44,080 nucleotides of DNA, taken from positions 1 through 44,080 of the IMG/VR virus record IMGVR_UViG_3300002225_000006, one strand, 5' to 3'. The notes under the pieces were generated by a model. It was not told the DNA's origin. It did not search any database and saw only the letters and a program-made list of their open reading frames with translations. Of this stretch, positions 9,287 to 42,369 are shown one piece after another. Every line of letters begins with the position of its first letter. Within the stretch, counting starts at the first letter, position 1. A program made the position numbers and the translations under genes. Source of the stretch: a virus.

Positions 9287-10039
9287 ATGAAGATGACAGT
9301 GTTAGAAATCATACAAGAAGTGCTGTCCTACATAGATGGCGATGAAGTTTCAACTTGGGATCACACAACTGAGAGTGAGCAAGTATACACCATAGTCAAG
9401 GCCACCTACTTTAACATGATGAGCAATAGGCTATGGCCCCACCTACGAAAAGGTGTGACTGTAGCTACCCTAGCTGATGTCAATACCCCTACACATATGG
9501 TGTTGGCTGACACTATTAAAGAATTGTGCTTCATCAATTACAATGTGGCCACAACTACAGACACAAGAAAGAAGTATACTGAGCTTAAGTACTTGTCAGC
9601 TGAGGAGTTTATCCACAGAACTAACCAAGAAGACGACAGTCTATCTGAGGTGCAAGTGGTTACAGATCTGTCTGGTATTGAGCTAATGATACGTAATGAC
9701 AGAGCACCCACATACTACACAAGCTTTGATGATGAGAACCTTGTGATGGATAGCTTTGACTCAGCTGTTGCTACAACACTTGAGACAGCTAAGGTGCAGG
9801 CACAAGCCTATGTACTCCCAGCTTGGACAGATGAGACAGATGCATTCATACCTGACCTACCTGATGATGCTTTCAGGAGCTTAGTTGAGAGCTGTAAGTC
9901 AGTGGCTTCACAGAGCCTTATACAGACAGCTGACCCAAAGGCAGAGCAAGAGGCCACTAGGCAGAGTAGGTGGCTAGCTAGGAAGGCTAGACGTGTTGAA
10001 GGTGGTATTAAGTTTGCAAGCTTTGGTAGGAGGAAGTAA
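9287..10039 (+). CDS. Tail tubular protein A (T7 gp11-like adaptor)
   Basis: The 250-aa protein has the build of T7 gp11-type adaptors: N-terminal helices (MTVLEIIQEVLSYI, YTIVKATYFNMMSNRLW), a central beta region, and C-terminal helices rich in Arg and Lys (AFRSLVESCKSVASQSL, RQSRWLARKARR). Twelve copies would sit under the portal and connect it to the nozzle. It lies upstream of the nozzle gene with one tiny gene between, as in related marine podoviruses. Confidence 0.85.
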   Translation: MKMTVLEIIQEVLSYIDGDEVSTWDHTTESEQVYTIVKATYFNMMSNRLWPHLRKGVTVATLADVNTPTHMVLADTIKELCFINYNVATTTDTRKKYTELKYLSAEEFIHRTNQEDDSLSEVQVVTDLSGIELMIRNDRAPTYYTSFDDENLVMDSFDSAVATTLETAKVQAQAYVLPAWTDETDAFIPDLPDDAFRSLVESCKSVASQSLIQTADPKAEQEATRQSRWLARKARRVEGGIKFASFGRRK

Positions 10040-16200: not shown

Positions 16201-17996
16201 CTTACGAGTATATCAAGAGTGTTGAGAATGGTTATGTGAACTCACTGGATGATGCCTTCAAGGCTCTGTTCCGTGGTGTAGGTGATATAGCTGGTAGCAT
16301 GGGCCTTAAGAAGGTTGAGGGTAGTGCTAATTTCATGGCTGATAACGTCTCTATCACTAGTGACACTAAGCAGCTGGCAACCACCTTGTACATTACAACT
16401 AACCCACTGAGACAGATTGCTGTGCAAAGCTCGCAGGCTATGCAGTTGATGGCTAACTTCCCAGGGTATGTTGGTAAGCAAGGTTTGGCTAGGGATATGT
16501 CGTGGTTGTATACATTGATGAGTGCTAATGGTGAAGTTGGTAGTACAGCTAAGAAGTTGATTAAGGCAGCTGGACGTACCGAGACTGAAGCTAAGGATAT
16601 GTACAGATGGTTTATGGAGAGTGGCCAAGCTTCTGGTATTGACAGACAAGCCCTTGTTAAGGGATCTCTGACAGACCTAGTTGAAGCGTCTAAGATTACT
16701 GGTAAGAACACCATACTGTCTAAGACATTGGGCACACTACGTAAGTATGGCTTCGATGCTGGGGAGACTGTTAACGTTTCAACCTCTTGGTTAGCTCACT
16801 ACGACAAGATTAGCAAGGCTAAGAAAGGTAAGCTTACACAAGCTGACTTAGATCAGATCTCTGCTAGTGCTAGGAACTACACAGGAAACTTCAATGATGC
16901 GGGCCGTATGCCTTACTCAGAGAACTTCTTAGGGTTGATCTTTCACTATGCTCAGGTTCCACACAAGTTGATCTTGACAGGACTTACTAACAGGGGCTTG
17001 TCTCCTGCTGAGAGGGTTAGGTTAACAACCTTCAATGCTCTGATGTTCTCGTTACCACCTGCCACTATGTACTCTATGTTTGGGGACATATTGCCAGAGG
17101 GTGAGGAAGCTAGGGATTTGGTTGTGCAGGGTTTGTTGGGGTACACCTTCAACTCCATGCTGACACAAGCCTCGCAGATGGTTGACGAGAGCCAGCCCAA
17201 GACTAAGTTAGACTTCTCCAACATGGCACCTAATGACATGACAGGATTGGTTGAGCTTGTACACGGGTTGTTCACTACGGATGCCGGCGAGATTATGTCT
17301 AACACACCAGCTGGGCAGTTGTTCTTTGGTGCAAACCCTAGACTGACTAACCTAGCTAAGAGTAGTGCTAGATTGTTCAACTACTTTGATGATGAGCAAG
17401 AGCCTATCGCGGTTGCCACTTTGGCTAAGGAAACTGCTAAGATGTTCTCTGGTATGAGCAACTTGTGGAAGGCTAAGATGGCACTCCAGACTGGCTTGAA
17501 GCGTAATAGCTTAGGTAACATCACAGATACTCAGGTGTCTGCATTTGAAGGTGTTGGTCAGGCATTTGGCTACCCAACAATGGATGAAAGTCAAAGACGT
17601 TGGATTGGTAACGAACGCTACGTTAAGACTAAGGCCTTTAAGGATGATGTGAAGGAATACTACAAGACTATTAAGCGTAACCTAGCAGTTGACGGTATTG
17701 ATCCTAAGAGTCATGAGGGTATCACCAGAGTTGTTAGTTATGCTTCACAAGGCTTTGAGGGTGTTGCTAAGATTGAAGCACAGCGTATGATTGGTCAGTT
17801 GTTAAAGAGAGATGCTAGTGATGGTGATGGCTCTTTGTACAACTCAATCATAAAGGCTAGCGGCATGATGGACGCTCAAGAGACTCACAACATGATTGAT
17901 GCCATTCCTGACTGGGATGAGAAGAAGCGGCAGAAGGCTCATGATACTATAGACTTCATGCACAACTTTAAGATTGAATCAGAGGTAGATAAGTGA
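13209..17996 (+). CDS. Giant internal virion/DNA ejection protein, 1595 aa
   Basis: This is the largest gene. Its size and place, after the gp14-like gene and before the lysozyme-bearing internal protein, match the ejected core proteins (T7 gp16-like) that form the trans-envelope channel. The N-terminus is acidic and helical. Residues about 455-510 carry an internal duplication, TRFSMKFGP followed about 40 residues later by TRYSMKYGP. The last third is helical with hydrophobic stretches (NPLRQIAVQSSQAMQLMANF, LPPATMYSMFG). I see no transglycosylase motif here. The next gene carries the muralytic domain instead. Its stop overlaps the next start (TGATG). Confidence 0.85.
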   Translation: MSLNEDLGETIEPSSELFKTEEERPTLSPSSNSNLAAHGALLTGDENIGATFDLISAELADGGVSETSTSLVQLAKDGAQQSSEDALTEMLLDPTVSQVDKQSAIHGFSQLAVKPTSIQDVVSEQALIAPSEGETVEAEVIRISTAQLVTELNDFKRQKTAILNAAAAEGSSETADIVLDLVEIIAPFTESKLVTQVMGDVRGKHKLKDFVLSGSAKEELRSAIAAMPIDQQLEASQKVVDIISKNSSIILPGDNDFAKLDLLRTVLEDGYYTQADKYLDNMVSLLDMTILGGALSSPVRGLKKLVKGFRGAKAPSVGDTVADGVKSTVSPSSVSQNLKDTNPAKSKNLHDAVVNSEGDDVAKAAYGADKNEAVANDLLQEVAKTDGSVKNKVGNMGSKKDQEITGNPDTLEFNKKDGQIYYFEQEKRSARAHIANDLHNALGITARSELTTVESFGGSTRFSMKFGPKKKGDSKGLAVVSGVKGKGELATGSDHTGITRYSMKYGPEQGGWSNAGDAIEGVKISLRDLGITDDNIKLLYRDGENYVPTTLADEAKLADGPQDYIVQVDYDYKVNPMDVEEWAKPDVKRNLFDRSALLSGTSNGSFQRHLLDAASMLDPKLTGGAAQVIDKSAELDRKLVEELKKFSDTYVALPADRQQMVESLLKEANFKSQGPNLNKLIADGFTPKEIEALSSWKNFGDTMYWLENADLVKTLSNQGFGVIDGTKDGSKLFAKGIQRGGVKQNARVYDPIKDEVVTLSGKELDDLYEAGGEVATLKQPTMIDDDMVDLIVTTNKPGASYLRRLNPEDSVLTYKPWHYQVRYKAPYFIDELVHNSKGEFLYKKAVAVSGNVKDAEREVRRLTATTGRQYAPPRRDIKMMDLGSEDYWSLQVTTGRTSQRVRGKRLEDSTNPMNSGADNQWVLGPIDSAIAAARNMSKRASTRDYLDATKARFMENYGDLIPKNKYGQVAFPRTSKDISNMGSVGKGQSKRLADARTTYEYIKSVENGYVNSLDDAFKALFRGVGDIAGSMGLKKVEGSANFMADNVSITSDTKQLATTLYITTNPLRQIAVQSSQAMQLMANFPGYVGKQGLARDMSWLYTLMSANGEVGSTAKKLIKAAGRTETEAKDMYRWFMESGQASGIDRQALVKGSLTDLVEASKITGKNTILSKTLGTLRKYGFDAGETVNVSTSWLAHYDKISKAKKGKLTQADLDQISASARNYTGNFNDAGRMPYSENFLGLIFHYAQVPHKLILTGLTNRGLSPAERVRLTTFNALMFSLPPATMYSMFGDILPEGEEARDLVVQGLLGYTFNSMLTQASQMVDESQPKTKLDFSNMAPNDMTGLVELVHGLFTTDAGEIMSNTPAGQLFFGANPRLTNLAKSSARLFNYFDDEQEPIAVATLAKETAKMFSGMSNLWKAKMALQTGLKRNSLGNITDTQVSAFEGVGQAFGYPTMDESQRRWIGNERYVKTKAFKDDVKEYYKTIKRNLAVDGIDPKSHEGITRVVSYASQGFEGVAKIEAQRMIGQLLKRDASDGDGSLYNSIIKASGMMDAQETHNMIDAIPDWDEKKRQKAHDTIDFMHNFKIESEVDK

Positions 17997-20260
17997 TGGT
18001 AGATTTTACACAAGCACAAGTGGGAGGCCCACAAGGAACTCCTACAACTGTGCAGGCACCTATATCTGATAGGTCAGCTGAGCTTGGTGTTAATCTGTTT
18101 ACTGACCTTGTAAGAGGGGTTGGTAAGCAGCAGGAAGCTAAGAGGGAAGCTGAGAGTGTTGACGCTGGTAATACAGCCCTTGCAAACTACTCTAAGCAGC
18201 AACTCAAGCTGGCACAAGCTGTAGAGCAAGGTTCTATGTCAAGTGCTAAGGCTCGTACATTGATGCGAGTTAACACTAGTCAGTTCATCTCAGACAACCC
18301 AGCACTACGGGAAGACACCTTCAAGGCTCATAAGAGTATTGTTGGTGGGTCTGGGTTAGGTAAGGTTGTTGCTGAAGGTACACAAGCTGAGAAGCTTCAG
18401 ATTAAGCTGGAGAGTACAGCAGCTCTTGAAGGCTGGCTATCTCCTGACATGACAGATAGTGAACGTGAAGAGGGTGTACAGAATTACCTAGATAACAAAG
18501 CTGCTGGACGGGCCTTAGATAAAGCGCAGAAAGATGTGTCTTTAGCCACTGCTAAGGTGGGATTAAGTGAGGCTGAGCGTAAAGCTGCCCTAGGTAAAGC
18601 TAAGACAGACACACAGCGGGCCTTATCACAGACAGCTTCAGCTTGGACTAAACGGGCTGTTAGTGAGGTTGGTAGCATCAATAAGCAAGTACAACAGGGT
18701 GCTATGTCTGCTCAAGATGGTGAGGTTAGGTTGAACCAGCTTAAGGCCACACTTAATGGCGAGCTTAGCCGTATGGGTGCCCAAGGTGGTGGTGAGTATC
18801 TAAACACTATAGCCAACCCTATTATGGATGTATATGACAACGGTATTGAGCAAGTTAGTGGTCGTATGAGTACAGCAGCAGTTAAGCTTGCTAATGACCG
18901 CAAGGTTGCCATAGCGACTAACCAACTACTCCAGAATGAGAGTGCTGTAAGAATTAAGGCTGCACAGAGCTTGTCCAACTTTGCTAATGTAATAACTGTT
19001 GGTCAGATTACACCAGTTATAGTTGACTTCATGGAAGCAGCTAATGACCCTAGCCCTGAGTCTGAAGTTGCTAACCTAACTGTATCAAAGAACAGTGAAG
19101 ATGCTAAGAACTACCTCAGCATTATGAAGGATAACTACAAAGCTGATGGCAGAAAGGATACAAACGAGGAACAGAAGGTTGGTATACAGAATGGCGTCAA
19201 TGACATGCTCAAGAGTCTACCAACTCACGAAGGTAGTATCAAGTCCCCTAAGCAAGTTGCTGAACTGTTGAACCACTATGCAAGTCAGGAGTTTGGCTCC
19301 TACAGTGTAGCTAATGGTGCCGTTATGGATCAGGGCGCTGCTGCTGAGAGTGTTAGGGTTATACAAGGTCAAATCCTAAATGCTGTAGGGCCTGAGATTG
19401 AGAAGTATTATAACACAGGCTTTAAGATTGAGGGTAATGTTAAGTCAAGAGTAAACCCACTACCACCCACAGATGTTAAGGTTGCTGTAATGCCTAACTT
19501 CGTCAATGGTGCTTTCGTGTTTACACCAAGAGCTGAGTTTATCAATGACCCTGACGTACAGGCAAGAGCCTCAAGAATGACTAAGGATATGGCCCCAGCT
19601 ATTAACAAGCTTATTAAAGCTGAGAGTCATTTGTCTGGCCACAAGTCTTATGCTACAACTTACCAGAACTTGCTACCAGCTATGTTCCCAGGTGAGAGTG
19701 GTGAAGAACAGCTTAGTGGCAAGATTGACAGGAGTGGTGGTGCTGTTAAAGCCCCTGAGAGTCCACAGGAGCCTATTACAGAGGAACCTAGTGCAGACGT
19801 ACCAACTAGCAGAGAAGACCTCCTACGGAGCAGTGAGGGAGTCAGAGAGGAAAGCTACCTAGACAGTAAAGGCAACTTGACTGGTGGTATAGGTCACTTG
19901 ATGTCTGCTGAAGAGCGTAAGCAATACCCAGAAGGCTCTGCCATACCTAAAGAGGTGGTTGATAAGTGGTTTAAGGAAGATACAGCCACAGCTGCTAAGG
20001 AGTCTAAGGAGCTTATAGATGAGCATATAGGAGAGGAAGTACCTAAAGAGGTTGAAGAGATATTATTTGATATGACCTTCAATATGGGTAAGTCTCGTTT
20101 ATCTAAGTTTAAGAAGACTTTTGCTGCAATCAAGAATAAGGATTACATAGAAGCTGCTATGGAGATGTTGGATAGCAACTGGGCAAGGGATGTCAAAGGT
20201 AGGTCTAATGACCTGGCTAGACGTATGATAGCTTTAGACAGGGGTGGGCGTAATGAATAA
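17996..20260 (+). CDS. Internal virion protein with C-terminal GH24 lysozyme domain
   Basis: The 754-aa protein has a long helical N-terminal region, an acidic Pro-rich linker near residues 580-605 (PESPQEPITEEPSAD), and a T4-lysozyme-type GH24 muramidase at about 605-754. In the last, SEGVREESYLDSKGNLTGGI aligns with the Glu-x8-Asp-x5-Thr catalytic segment, followed by DMTFNMG and NDLARRMIALDRGG. It would cut peptidoglycan during DNA entry. No other endolysin is visible, so it might also act in lysis. The ATG at 17996 overlaps the previous stop. GAGGT lies eight bases upstream. Confidence 0.87.
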   Translation: MVDFTQAQVGGPQGTPTTVQAPISDRSAELGVNLFTDLVRGVGKQQEAKREAESVDAGNTALANYSKQQLKLAQAVEQGSMSSAKARTLMRVNTSQFISDNPALREDTFKAHKSIVGGSGLGKVVAEGTQAEKLQIKLESTAALEGWLSPDMTDSEREEGVQNYLDNKAAGRALDKAQKDVSLATAKVGLSEAERKAALGKAKTDTQRALSQTASAWTKRAVSEVGSINKQVQQGAMSAQDGEVRLNQLKATLNGELSRMGAQGGGEYLNTIANPIMDVYDNGIEQVSGRMSTAAVKLANDRKVAIATNQLLQNESAVRIKAAQSLSNFANVITVGQITPVIVDFMEAANDPSPESEVANLTVSKNSEDAKNYLSIMKDNYKADGRKDTNEEQKVGIQNGVNDMLKSLPTHEGSIKSPKQVAELLNHYASQEFGSYSVANGAVMDQGAAAESVRVIQGQILNAVGPEIEKYYNTGFKIEGNVKSRVNPLPPTDVKVAVMPNFVNGAFVFTPRAEFINDPDVQARASRMTKDMAPAINKLIKAESHLSGHKSYATTYQNLLPAMFPGESGEEQLSGKIDRSGGAVKAPESPQEPITEEPSADVPTSREDLLRSSEGVREESYLDSKGNLTGGIGHLMSAEERKQYPEGSAIPKEVVDKWFKEDTATAAKESKELIDEHIGEEVPKEVEEILFDMTFNMGKSRLSKFKKTFAAIKNKDYIEAAMEMLDSNWARDVKGRSNDLARRMIALDRGGRNE

Positions 20261-20906: not shown

Positions 20907-22364
20907 ATGAGTGAACAAAATATAAATGATTTGAAACACAAGTTCCTTGGTGGTTCTGGCAACATCAATGACATGATGCTAGCTGTCTTGTTAGCTGCTG
21001 AGGATAGTACAAACCTATTCTGGGACAATGATGATGGTACGTTAGGGATAGGTGAACCAAGTGATGGGGCGGCCCTTCATGTTGGTGGGTCAATAGAGCA
21101 GGTTGTCATAAGTGACCCAACTGTTGTTGGTAGCGTTAGTGATGGGGTTAACCTAAGTGGGGCTTTTGGTAGTTATGTCTCAGGGAGTTATGCATATGTA
21201 GCAAACACTCTCGGGGATAGCCTAACAGTAGTTGATGTGTCTGACCCTACAGCTCCTAGTATGATTGGTCAAGTTGTAGACGCCACTAACCTTAATGGTG
21301 CTATCAGCGTCTACGTAGTGGGTAGTTATGCCTATGTTGCTTCTGAGGGTGGAGATAGCCTAACAGTAGTTGATGTGTCTGACCCTACAGCTCCTAGTGT
21401 GGCTGGGCAGGCAATAGATGGAACTAATCTTAATGGGCCAAGGGGTGTACATATCTCAGGTAATTATGCCTATGTAGCTTGCAACTTTGGGAACAGCTTA
21501 ACAGCAGTTGATGTGTCCGACCCTACAGCTCCGGTAGTTGCAGGACAAGTAATAGATGGAACCAACTTAAATGGTGCCAGAGGTGTTAAAGTGTCAGGTA
21601 ATTATGCCTATGTAGCTTGTGGTGGTGGAAATAGCTTAACGGTAGTTGATGTGTCTGACCCCACAGCTCCTAGCGTGGCTGGGCAAGTTATTGATGCTAC
21701 TAACCTCAATGACCCAAGGGGTGTCAGCTTGTCAGGTGGTTACGCCTATGTAGCTTGTTTCACTGGAGATAGCTTAACGGTAGTTGATGTATCTGACCCT
21801 ACAGCTCCTAGCGTGGCTGGGCAAGTTATTGACAGTGTAGCTCTAGACAAGGCATCTAGCGTCCATGTATCCGGTAATTACGCTTATGTTGCTGGTAGTG
21901 GTGTCACAGTTGTAGACATAAGTGACCATACAGCCCCTAGTGTTGCAGGGCAAGTCACAGACGGTACTGATTTGGATGTTGCCAGAGGTATATACGTGTA
22001 TGGTGGTTACGCTTATGTAGCTTGTTTCACTGGAAATAGCCTAACAGTTGTTGACATAAATGGCACTAAGCTACTATCAGCTGATATAGGGGACATTAAA
22101 ACTCACCACATTGATGTAGACCAAGAAGCCCAAGTGGGAAACCTCCTAGTCAAGACTGGGGCTAACATAGGTGGTAACTGCCTGGTAGCTGGACGATTAG
22201 CTCTTGGTGGTGGTGGTGTTGAGTTCATCACTGGTACAGGAACTCCTGAGAGTGCTGTAGTGGCTCAGGTAGGTTCAATCTTCACAAGGGCTGATGGCGG
22301 AGCCTCAACCACTATGTACATCAAGGAGTCAGGCACAGGTAACACTGGGTGGGTGGCCAAGTAA
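20907..22364 (+). CDS. Tail fibre/receptor-binding protein with seven LVIVD-type repeats
   Basis: The 485-aa product has a short virion-attachment N-terminus (1-60), seven near-identical 43-48 residue repeats (about 73-391) and a C-terminal fibre domain ending in the common phage motif SGTGNTGW. Each repeat carries the core YAYVA, then LTVVDVSDPTAPS, as in LVIVD beta-propeller repeats. Seven copies would close a seven-bladed ring. The segment VVISDPTVVG at 67-76 resembles the outer strand of a blade and could give the closing overlap. It most likely binds the host receptor. It lies after the lysis genes and before a small outer-membrane-like gene, with AAGGGG as RBS. Confidence 0.85.
   Translation: MSEQNINDLKHKFLGGSGNINDMMLAVLLAAEDSTNLFWDNDDGTLGIGEPSDGAALHVGGSIEQVVISDPTVVGSVSDGVNLSGAFGSYVSGSYAYVANTLGDSLTVVDVSDPTAPSMIGQVVDATNLNGAISVYVVGSYAYVASEGGDSLTVVDVSDPTAPSVAGQAIDGTNLNGPRGVHISGNYAYVACNFGNSLTAVDVSDPTAPVVAGQVIDGTNLNGARGVKVSGNYAYVACGGGNSLTVVDVSDPTAPSVAGQVIDATNLNDPRGVSLSGGYAYVACFTGDSLTVVDVSDPTAPSVAGQVIDSVALDKASSVHVSGNYAYVAGSGVTVVDISDHTAPSVAGQVTDGTDLDVARGIYVYGGYAYVACFTGNSLTVVDINGTKLLSADIGDIKTHHIDVDQEAQVGNLLVKTGANIGGNCLVAGRLALGGGGVEFITGTGTPESAVVAQVGSIFTRADGGASTTMYIKESGTGNTGWVAK
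21123..22079 (+). repeat. Seven tandem repeats of about 138 bp in the fibre gene
   Basis: The repeats encode residues about 73-391. Units 2 to 5 are exactly 46 codons, unit 6 is three codons shorter, and unit 7 ends differently. The DNA encoding VVDVSDPTAPS is almost identical between units, for example GATGTGTCTGACCCTACAGC. Such similarity indicates recent duplication or gene conversion and would allow unequal recombination. Confidence 0.92.
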
Positions 22365-22759
22365 TGATAAAGAAAGCATTGATATGGTTAATGCTAGCAG
22401 CTGGAGCCAATACGGCTCTGGCTGACAACTTGCATGTAGGCCAAGTGAGTCACCACTTTGTTCAACATAAGGGAACTGACTGGAGGGAGAAACATGCCTA
22501 CCTAGTGTATGAGCACGATAAGTCTGGCATCATGTTTGGGTATCTAAGGAACTCTTACAATGATGACTCTTGGCTTATTGGTAGCAAGTTCTTCAAGGGT
22601 GGCACTAGGGCTGGTGAGTTTGGTATTAAGGCTGGCCTAGTGTACGGATATGAGGAGTTTCCTGCATATGTGCTAGGCTATTGGAAATTTGCAATATTTG
22701 AAGTGAACTACCTACCTACACAAATGATTAGTGCAGGCTTTGTTTTTAAACTTAATTAG
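22364..22759 (+). CDS. Secreted small outer-membrane beta-barrel protein (PagP-like fold suspected)
   Basis: The 131-aa precursor starts MIKKALIWLMLAAGANTALA, a clear Sec signal peptide cleaved after ALA. The mature part alternates polar and aromatic residues in beta strands (YLVYEHDKSGIMFGYLRNSY, YVLGYWKFAIFEVNYLP) and ends FVFKLN with a near-terminal aromatic, as outer-membrane barrels do. Size and the late YLP segment recall PagP-type 8-stranded barrels, but catalytic residues cannot be confirmed. The ATG overlaps the fibre stop (TAATG), so it is coupled to the receptor-binding gene. A role in superinfection exclusion or surface modification is inferred. Confidence 0.7.
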   Translation: MIKKALIWLMLAAGANTALADNLHVGQVSHHFVQHKGTDWREKHAYLVYEHDKSGIMFGYLRNSYNDDSWLIGSKFFKGGTRAGEFGIKAGLVYGYEEFPAYVLGYWKFAIFEVNYLPTQMISAGFVFKLN

Positions 22760-22965: not shown

Positions 22966-23325
22966 ATGCAAGAACTTGTACTTGTACCAGCAGCAGACTT
23001 GAAAGGGGCCTTTAGGCTTGCTAGTGATTGGCATATTAAGGTGAATGGTAAGCTTTGGATTGTGCCAGCAGGAACACTAACTAATGGTGCTAGCATACCT
23101 AGCTATCTTAGAGTGTTCTTCAAGCCATTTCATCCACACTACACGGAAGCTTCAGTGTTGCATGACTACTTGACAGGGGAGTGGGATGGTAAACCTAAAG
23201 TTGGGTGGGGTGAGGCAACAAATATAATGGGGCAGGTTATGGAAGCTAACGGATCTCCACAGTGGAAGGTAACATTGTTTAAGGCTAGCTTGTTGGTGTA
23301 TGGATTACACACAGGCAGGTACTAG
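22966..23325 (+). CDS. DUF1353 family protein
   Basis: The 119-aa protein shows the DUF1353 signature: LWIVPAGTLTNGASIPSYL at residues about 31-49, then ASVLHDYLTG near 62-71 and a C-terminal amphipathic helix. DUF1353 proteins are common at the ends of phage late operons near lysis or tail genes, and their function is unknown. The conserved His-Asp pair in LHDYL hints at a metal or catalytic site. GTGAGGTAGGAT precedes the ATG. It is the last rightward gene, and transcription converges 45 bp downstream. Confidence 0.82.
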   Translation: MQELVLVPAADLKGAFRLASDWHIKVNGKLWIVPAGTLTNGASIPSYLRVFFKPFHPHYTEASVLHDYLTGEWDGKPKVGWGEATNIMGQVMEANGSPQWKVTLFKASLLVYGLHTGRY

Positions 23326-41883: not shown

Positions 41884-42369
41884 CTACTTAGTTGGTTTAG
41901 CTGGGTTAGCTTCTATTGCATCAAATATATAAGCTTTGTTCTCTTTCCAGAAGCTTAAAGCCTCGCTGTCCATAGCCCCTATCTCTTGGTCACTAAAGCT
42001 TAACCACTCCTTAAAACTGCAATTCTTACAACCTATTTGTAGTCTATCAGAAGTGTAGCACACTTTGTAGGTAGGTGTCTTTATATTTTTAATATAAGTT
42101 TGATCGCCTGTTGTGCCCCATAGTCTAGCACCCCCTATGTCAGCACCCTCTAGGTAAGCACCTTCTAGGTTAGAGCATACTAGGTTAGCACCTTCTAGGT
42201 AAGCGCCTTCTAGGTAAGCACCAGCTAAGTAAGTGCCATATAGGTAAGCACCTTCTAGGCGAACACCTTCGCTAACAGCTTTCTCAACTGTTAGCTTAAT
42301 GGTGTTATTCTCACAAGCGTGAGTGAATAAAGCCTTTCCTTTAGTACTCTGTATAGTTATAGCTTTCAT
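41884..42369 (-). CDS. Pentapeptide repeat protein, 161 aa
   Basis: Residues about 37-86 hold ten consecutive pentapeptides of the A(Y/N/D)LxG type, for example EGAYLEGAYLEGANL, forming a quadrilateral beta-helix. The C-terminal 75 residues are a phage-typical domain with YIKNIKTPTYKVCYTSD, CKNCSFKEWLSFSDQEIG and EALSFWKENKAYIFDAIE. Helix-mimicking pentapeptide proteins can inhibit gyrase (Qnr/MfpA type), but nothing here proves it. The start overlaps the previous stop (ATGA). An in-frame coding DNA repeat accompanies it. Confidence 0.85.
   Translation of the reverse strand: MKAITIQSTKGKALFTHACENNTIKLTVEKAVSEGVRLEGAYLYGTYLAGAYLEGAYLEGANLVCSNLEGAYLEGADIGGARLWGTTGDQTYIKNIKTPTYKVCYTSDRLQIGCKNCSFKEWLSFSDQEIGAMDSEALSFWKENKAYIFDAIEANPAKPTK
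42112..42261 (-). repeat. 15-bp tandem repeats encoding the pentapeptides
   Basis: On the plus strand, variants of TAGGTAAGCACC follow each other in 15-bp steps. Some copies are identical, so slippage or recombination can add or remove repeats. These are coding repeats, not a CRISPR array. Confidence 0.8.

Follow-up and report, generated by a model that had tools for sequence, protein, structure and literature searches.

The window, that is, the whole stretch of DNA analysed, comprises 44,080 nt of one viral record (IMGVR_UViG_3300002225_000006). Its ends form a 55-bp direct repeat, indicating that the record is a complete, circularly assembled genome. Matches to Zobellviridae core genes were found for the terminase, head-tail adaptor, major head protein, tail tube A, and large internal virion proteins, with tail tube A (9287-10039) sharing about 50% identity with its counterpart in oyster-associated and Vibrio members of the family. 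By its predicted core genes and their order, the virus is assigned as a Zobellviridae-like podovirus. Its late operon is closed by P0001, an intact ORF (ORF listing). Upstream of it in the operon lie two small membrane-type proteins as well as an internal virion protein that bears a lysozyme domain. The parts of P0001 are as follows.

20907..22364 (+): P0001, probable tail fibre with an LVIVD propeller, 485 aa (ORF, Pfam, AF2)
20907..21119 (+): N-terminal region, residues 1-71; predicted helices 3-14 and 20-32, low confidence; proposed tail anchor (AF2, weak ND-motif resemblance)
21120..21140 (+): residues 72-78, predicted strand that would be the fourth of blade 7 and so close the ring (AF2 strand list)
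21126..21263 (+): LVIVD repeat 1, residues 74-119 (Pfam, repeat comparison)
21264..21401 (+): LVIVD repeat 2, residues 120-165 (Pfam, repeat comparison)
21402..21539 (+): LVIVD repeat 3, residues 166-211 (Pfam, repeat comparison)
21540..21677 (+): LVIVD repeat 4, residues 212-257 (Pfam, repeat comparison)
21678..21815 (+): LVIVD repeat 5, residues 258-303 (Pfam, repeat comparison)
21816..21944 (+): LVIVD repeat 6, residues 304-346, 43 aa (Pfam, repeat comparison)
21945..22061 (+): LVIVD repeat 7, residues 347-385, without loop and fourth strand (Pfam, repeat comparison, AF2)
22062..22244 (+): residues 386-446, presumed beta stem, low confidence in AF2 (similarity to sequence that follows other LVIVD arrays)
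22245..22361 (+): residues 447-485, C-terminal tip module common to tail fibres (sequence matches)

Several other genes deserve mention. The internal virion protein (17993-20260, +) carries its phage lysozyme domain at the C-terminus; several relatives (O4, T5S1) encode the lysin in a gene of its own. Directly after P0001 lies a gene for a 131-aa protein (22364-22759, +) with a signal-like N-terminus and a PHROG match to PagP (lipid A acylation, E 1e-16). Its ATG overlaps the stop codon of P0001 (TAATG), and it is possibly a coupled, envelope-modifying moron. Further downstream, a DUF1353 protein (22966-23325, +; Pfam E 1e-14) is also hit by the PHROG named tail assembly chaperone. On the opposite strand, a 161-aa protein (41884-42369, -) features pentapeptide-like repeats (GAYLE), which correspond to a 15-nt tandem repeat at 42127-42270.

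The Pfam profile of the LVIVD family (PF08309) matches P0001 in seven stretches with an E-value of 8.8e-68, far beyond chance, and the score of 223.9 bits compares with a gathering score of 20.2. The seven tandem repeats claimed in the preliminary description are thus borne out; they start at residues 74, 120, 166, 212, 258, 304, and 347, with a length of 46 aa for six repeats and 43 aa for the sixth. P0001 also matches phrog_22523 (E 7e-34), a family that carries no function and that matches other phage LVIVD proteins as well. From the single sequence, AF2 gave a model with a mean pLDDT of 49.6, which was not used. The model used here was obtained from an alignment of 51 seven-repeat arrays (P0001 and 50 relatives), and in it residues 71-380 reach a pLDDT of about 94-98, while confidence is low in the N-terminus, stem, and tip. 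The 28 predicted strands amount to seven blades of four strands each, and Foldseek superpositions with seven-bladed WD40 propellers of solved structure give 2.3-2.7 Å over about 310-330 columns, with 8-9% identity. Residues 72-385 are predicted with high confidence to form a seven-bladed LVIVD propeller, and the monomer prediction agrees with the earlier proposal of such a fold. Repeat 7 comprises three strands, and repeat 1 is preceded by an additional one, residues 72-78 (VVGSVSD), so that, judging from strand count and superposition, the ring would most simply be closed by the N-terminal strand. This predicted strand overlaps the end of VVISDPTVVG, which the preliminary description had likened to a closing outer strand; the half-repeat ahead of the first repeat is real. 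A profile search of the PDB yielded no clear solved LVIVD structure, the matches to NHL, YbhE, and phosphotriesterase propellers being weak; BFVD already contains predicted propellers from uncultured phages and from Pithovirus.

The identity of P0001 as a fibre is indicated by its end and by its surroundings. The final 39 residues have counterparts in 34 phage records, with identities of 55-72%. The match is C-terminal in Loki gp21, Sour gp22 (minor tail protein), and KOX1 gp23 (tail fiber protein), and internal to a tail fibre in Eowyn. Homology to fibres runs through these C-terminal 39 aa only; the late operon in which the gene stands also carries genes for tail and lysis. At the other end of the protein, an ND-motif weakly resembles small ORFs in the same slot of two related contigs, L159 and L164 (E 0.006-0.02), and the anchor had no relatives by a degenerate DNA pattern and no significant tblastn match. 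No close relative of the whole protein was found in IMG/VR, the repeats matched nothing in named phages at E-values up to 1, and none of 49 Zobellviridae-like loci contains LVIVD repeats. In related contigs L142, L153, and L169, the slot of P0001 is filled by large fibre-like or spike-like genes, only one of which has a PHROG tail-fibre match, the others being judged by eye. Relatives carry a pectate-lyase-like spike or fibre gene upstream of the terminase, where this genome has small ORFs only, and neither the ORF list nor profile searches revealed another fibre candidate among the late genes of the complete genome. In a composition test for foreign origin, the overall G+C of the P0001 gene was ordinary (0.467 vs. 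0.446) and its GC3 was low (0.335). P0001 is most likely a tail fibre on the grounds of position, domains, and elimination, and the phage fibre of the preliminary description is well supported by gene position, the C-terminal module, and the lack of a second candidate in the genome. A place in the virion, an N-terminal anchor, a trimeric state, and receptor binding are inferred.

Variability between the repeats is unevenly distributed over the blade. It is highest in the BC loop (1.40 bits), followed by the A strand (1.24 bits), where it is concentrated at the start, while the B strand (0.21 bits), C strand (0.30 bits), and CD loop (0.19 bits) are nearly invariant. The D-A and B-C loops of a propeller lie on a common face; thus one face of P0001 appears to vary while the other is constant. 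If the variable face binds a ligand, this is the pattern to be expected, and the propeller may have a role in host range. Taken together, these observations make it probable that P0001 is a fibre and receptor-binding protein built from an anchor, a propeller with one variable face, a beta stem, and a tip. In this model, P0001 would be the receptor-binding tail fibre of a Zobellviridae-like podovirus, in which the short helical N-terminus would anchor the fibre to the tail. Residues 386-446 would form a probably trimeric beta stem ending in the tip module common to phage fibres. In the propeller, the variable face carrying the D-A and B-C loops would be directed at the cell surface, the other face being nearly constant, and specificity would change through loop substitution and not through blade number. 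The model proposes a function, that of tail fibre, for the phrog_22523 proteins, and it locates specificity, in a testable way, on the variable face of the seven-fold ring.

It is possible, though doubtful, that the propeller of this virion fibre serves only as a platform or spacer and that receptor binding falls to the C-terminal stem and tip. The antireceptor of podovirus fibres usually resides in the C-terminal domain (PMC10386132), and the tip module is common to fibres; however, that tip is conserved over phages of unrelated hosts, unlike a host-specific binder, and the variation sits in the propeller loops. An enzymatic role is very unlikely. A lactonase-like or phosphotriesterase-like propeller acting on the cell surface would account for the weak profile match to the propeller phosphotriesterase 5hrm (E 2e-5), which is also among the Foldseek hits, and for a Pfam lactonase match ranked below LVIVD, but the blades are nearly equal, which argues against a single asymmetric active site. 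That P0001 is a non-virion moron product, displayed on or secreted from the infected cell, is very unlikely. Although cell surfaces are the typical location of LVIVD proteins (PMC2447325) and P0001 lies directly upstream of the PagP-like moron, visual inspection of its N-terminus does not suggest a signal peptide, its C-terminus is a tail-fibre module, and the genome would then be without a fibre.

The repeats of P0001 were previously described as almost identical in DNA, which is incorrect. Pairwise identity is 50-83% for protein and 60-79% for DNA, and third codon positions of adjacent equal-length repeats are 50-65% identical; exact matches at the repeat spacing extend to 45 nt at most. The closest relative of each repeat is another P0001 repeat (7/7), i.e., the repeats appear to have been amplified or homogenised within their own lineage. 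Where residues are identical between repeats, the same codon is used in 55% of cases vs. 38% expected from the late genes, and this agreement, combined with the divergence, points to past amplification of the array as opposed to recent duplication. A repeat HMM was applied to 113 loci, some of them near-duplicates, and arrays of three or more repeats were counted, giving 36 viral and 118 cellular arrays. Exactly seven repeats are present in 19 of the viral and 37 of the cellular arrays, and 25 of the latter have 13-14. The modal numbers, 7 and 13-14, correspond to one or two propellers, and in arrays counted at five or six repeats, diverged repeats have probably been missed. Two viral proteins (L007 and L009) contain 21 and 20 repeats, equivalent to about three consecutive propellers of seven repeats. 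LVIVD arrays seem to evolve by the addition of whole propellers and not of single blades; blade number looks fixed, with variation in the number of propellers per protein and in the loops of one face. The proposal that unequal recombination changes blade number and thereby shifts host range, for which the 45-nt exact repeat and the raised codon agreement could be cited, is most improbable, and rapid change of this kind is rejected given the divergence of the repeats and the two peaks in the array counts. This corrects the idea of host range shifts by blade gain or loss in LVIVD arrays.

LVIVD arrays occur at 34 IMG/VR loci, and several of them are fused to tail domains, which adds to the case for P0001 as a fibre. 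Within one polypeptide, the array is combined with tail-collar and appendage regions (L014), tail-spike regions (L015), a tail-fibre N-terminus (L016), Mtd_N (L019), or Phage-tail_3 with Rcc01698_C, a tail-hub combination (L032). The family is, as had been stated, known mainly from microbial surface proteins, but its rarity in phage fibres was overstated in view of these several tail architectures and of phrog_22523. The segment comprising residues 386-446 of P0001 resembles segments that follow the LVIVD arrays of phages L007 and L015, as well as those of Magasanikbacteria and Nanoarchaeia contigs (L053, L063, L073, L074). Of the eight non-self matches obtained on comparing this segment with every ORF of the loci (4031 in total), six were LVIVD proteins, which account for 125 of the 4031 ORFs; the matches have modest E-values (2e-4 to 2e-2) and the stem sequences are simple. 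This suggests a travelling propeller-stem cassette, which is a lead and not a result. Tentatively, LVIVD propeller and stem may constitute a transferable recognition cassette of phage fibres in several groups and of surface proteins in Patescibacteria and DPANN archaea, with the loops of one face diversified and seven-blade closure fixed. Through such a shared two-part module, phage fibres and microbial surface proteins may be connected.

The LVIVD repeat family was described in archaeal and bacterial cell-surface proteins (PMC2447325). By profile, the repeat of P0001 is that of PF08309, but unlike the described proteins, P0001 is found in a phage and is joined to a tail-fibre tip module. A double peak corresponding to one and two propellers, as in the LVIVD arrays, is known from repetitive WD40 propellers (7 and 14 blades; PMC9218822). 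The blades of P0001, with a mean identity of 67% over 39 columns, lie near the median threshold of 60% used for highly repetitive propellers in that study, the main text of which does not mention the LVIVD family. Propellers are also contained in the fibres of injection systems (PMC12923769), and in phages they are present in the receptor-binding protein Gp45 of Staphylococcus phage phi11 (five blades; PMC4901313) and, as cited there, in PRD1 P2 and phiKZ gp131 (seven blades). Like phiKZ gp131C, a suspected receptor-binding protein, P0001 would have a seven-bladed propeller; gp131C is a baseplate protein of a jumbo myovirus and, judging from its absence among the hits listed in the P0001 sequence search, not of the LVIVD family. 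The plan of P0001 resembles that of phi11 Gp45 in its helical N-terminus, central propeller, and C-terminal beta domains, and in Gp45 an N-terminal strand closes the ring (PMC4901313), as predicted for P0001. Gp45 has five blades and a Staphylococcus host, whereas P0001 has seven, and Gp45 is absent both from the PDB sequence matches and from the 50 Foldseek hits listed, so it is the plan alone that is alike. No paper linking LVIVD with phage fibres was found in the literature, of which coverage was partial. Propellers in phage receptor-binding proteins are thus already known; what is proposed as new, within that coverage, is the LVIVD family in this role, which would extend the small number of propeller families known from such proteins.
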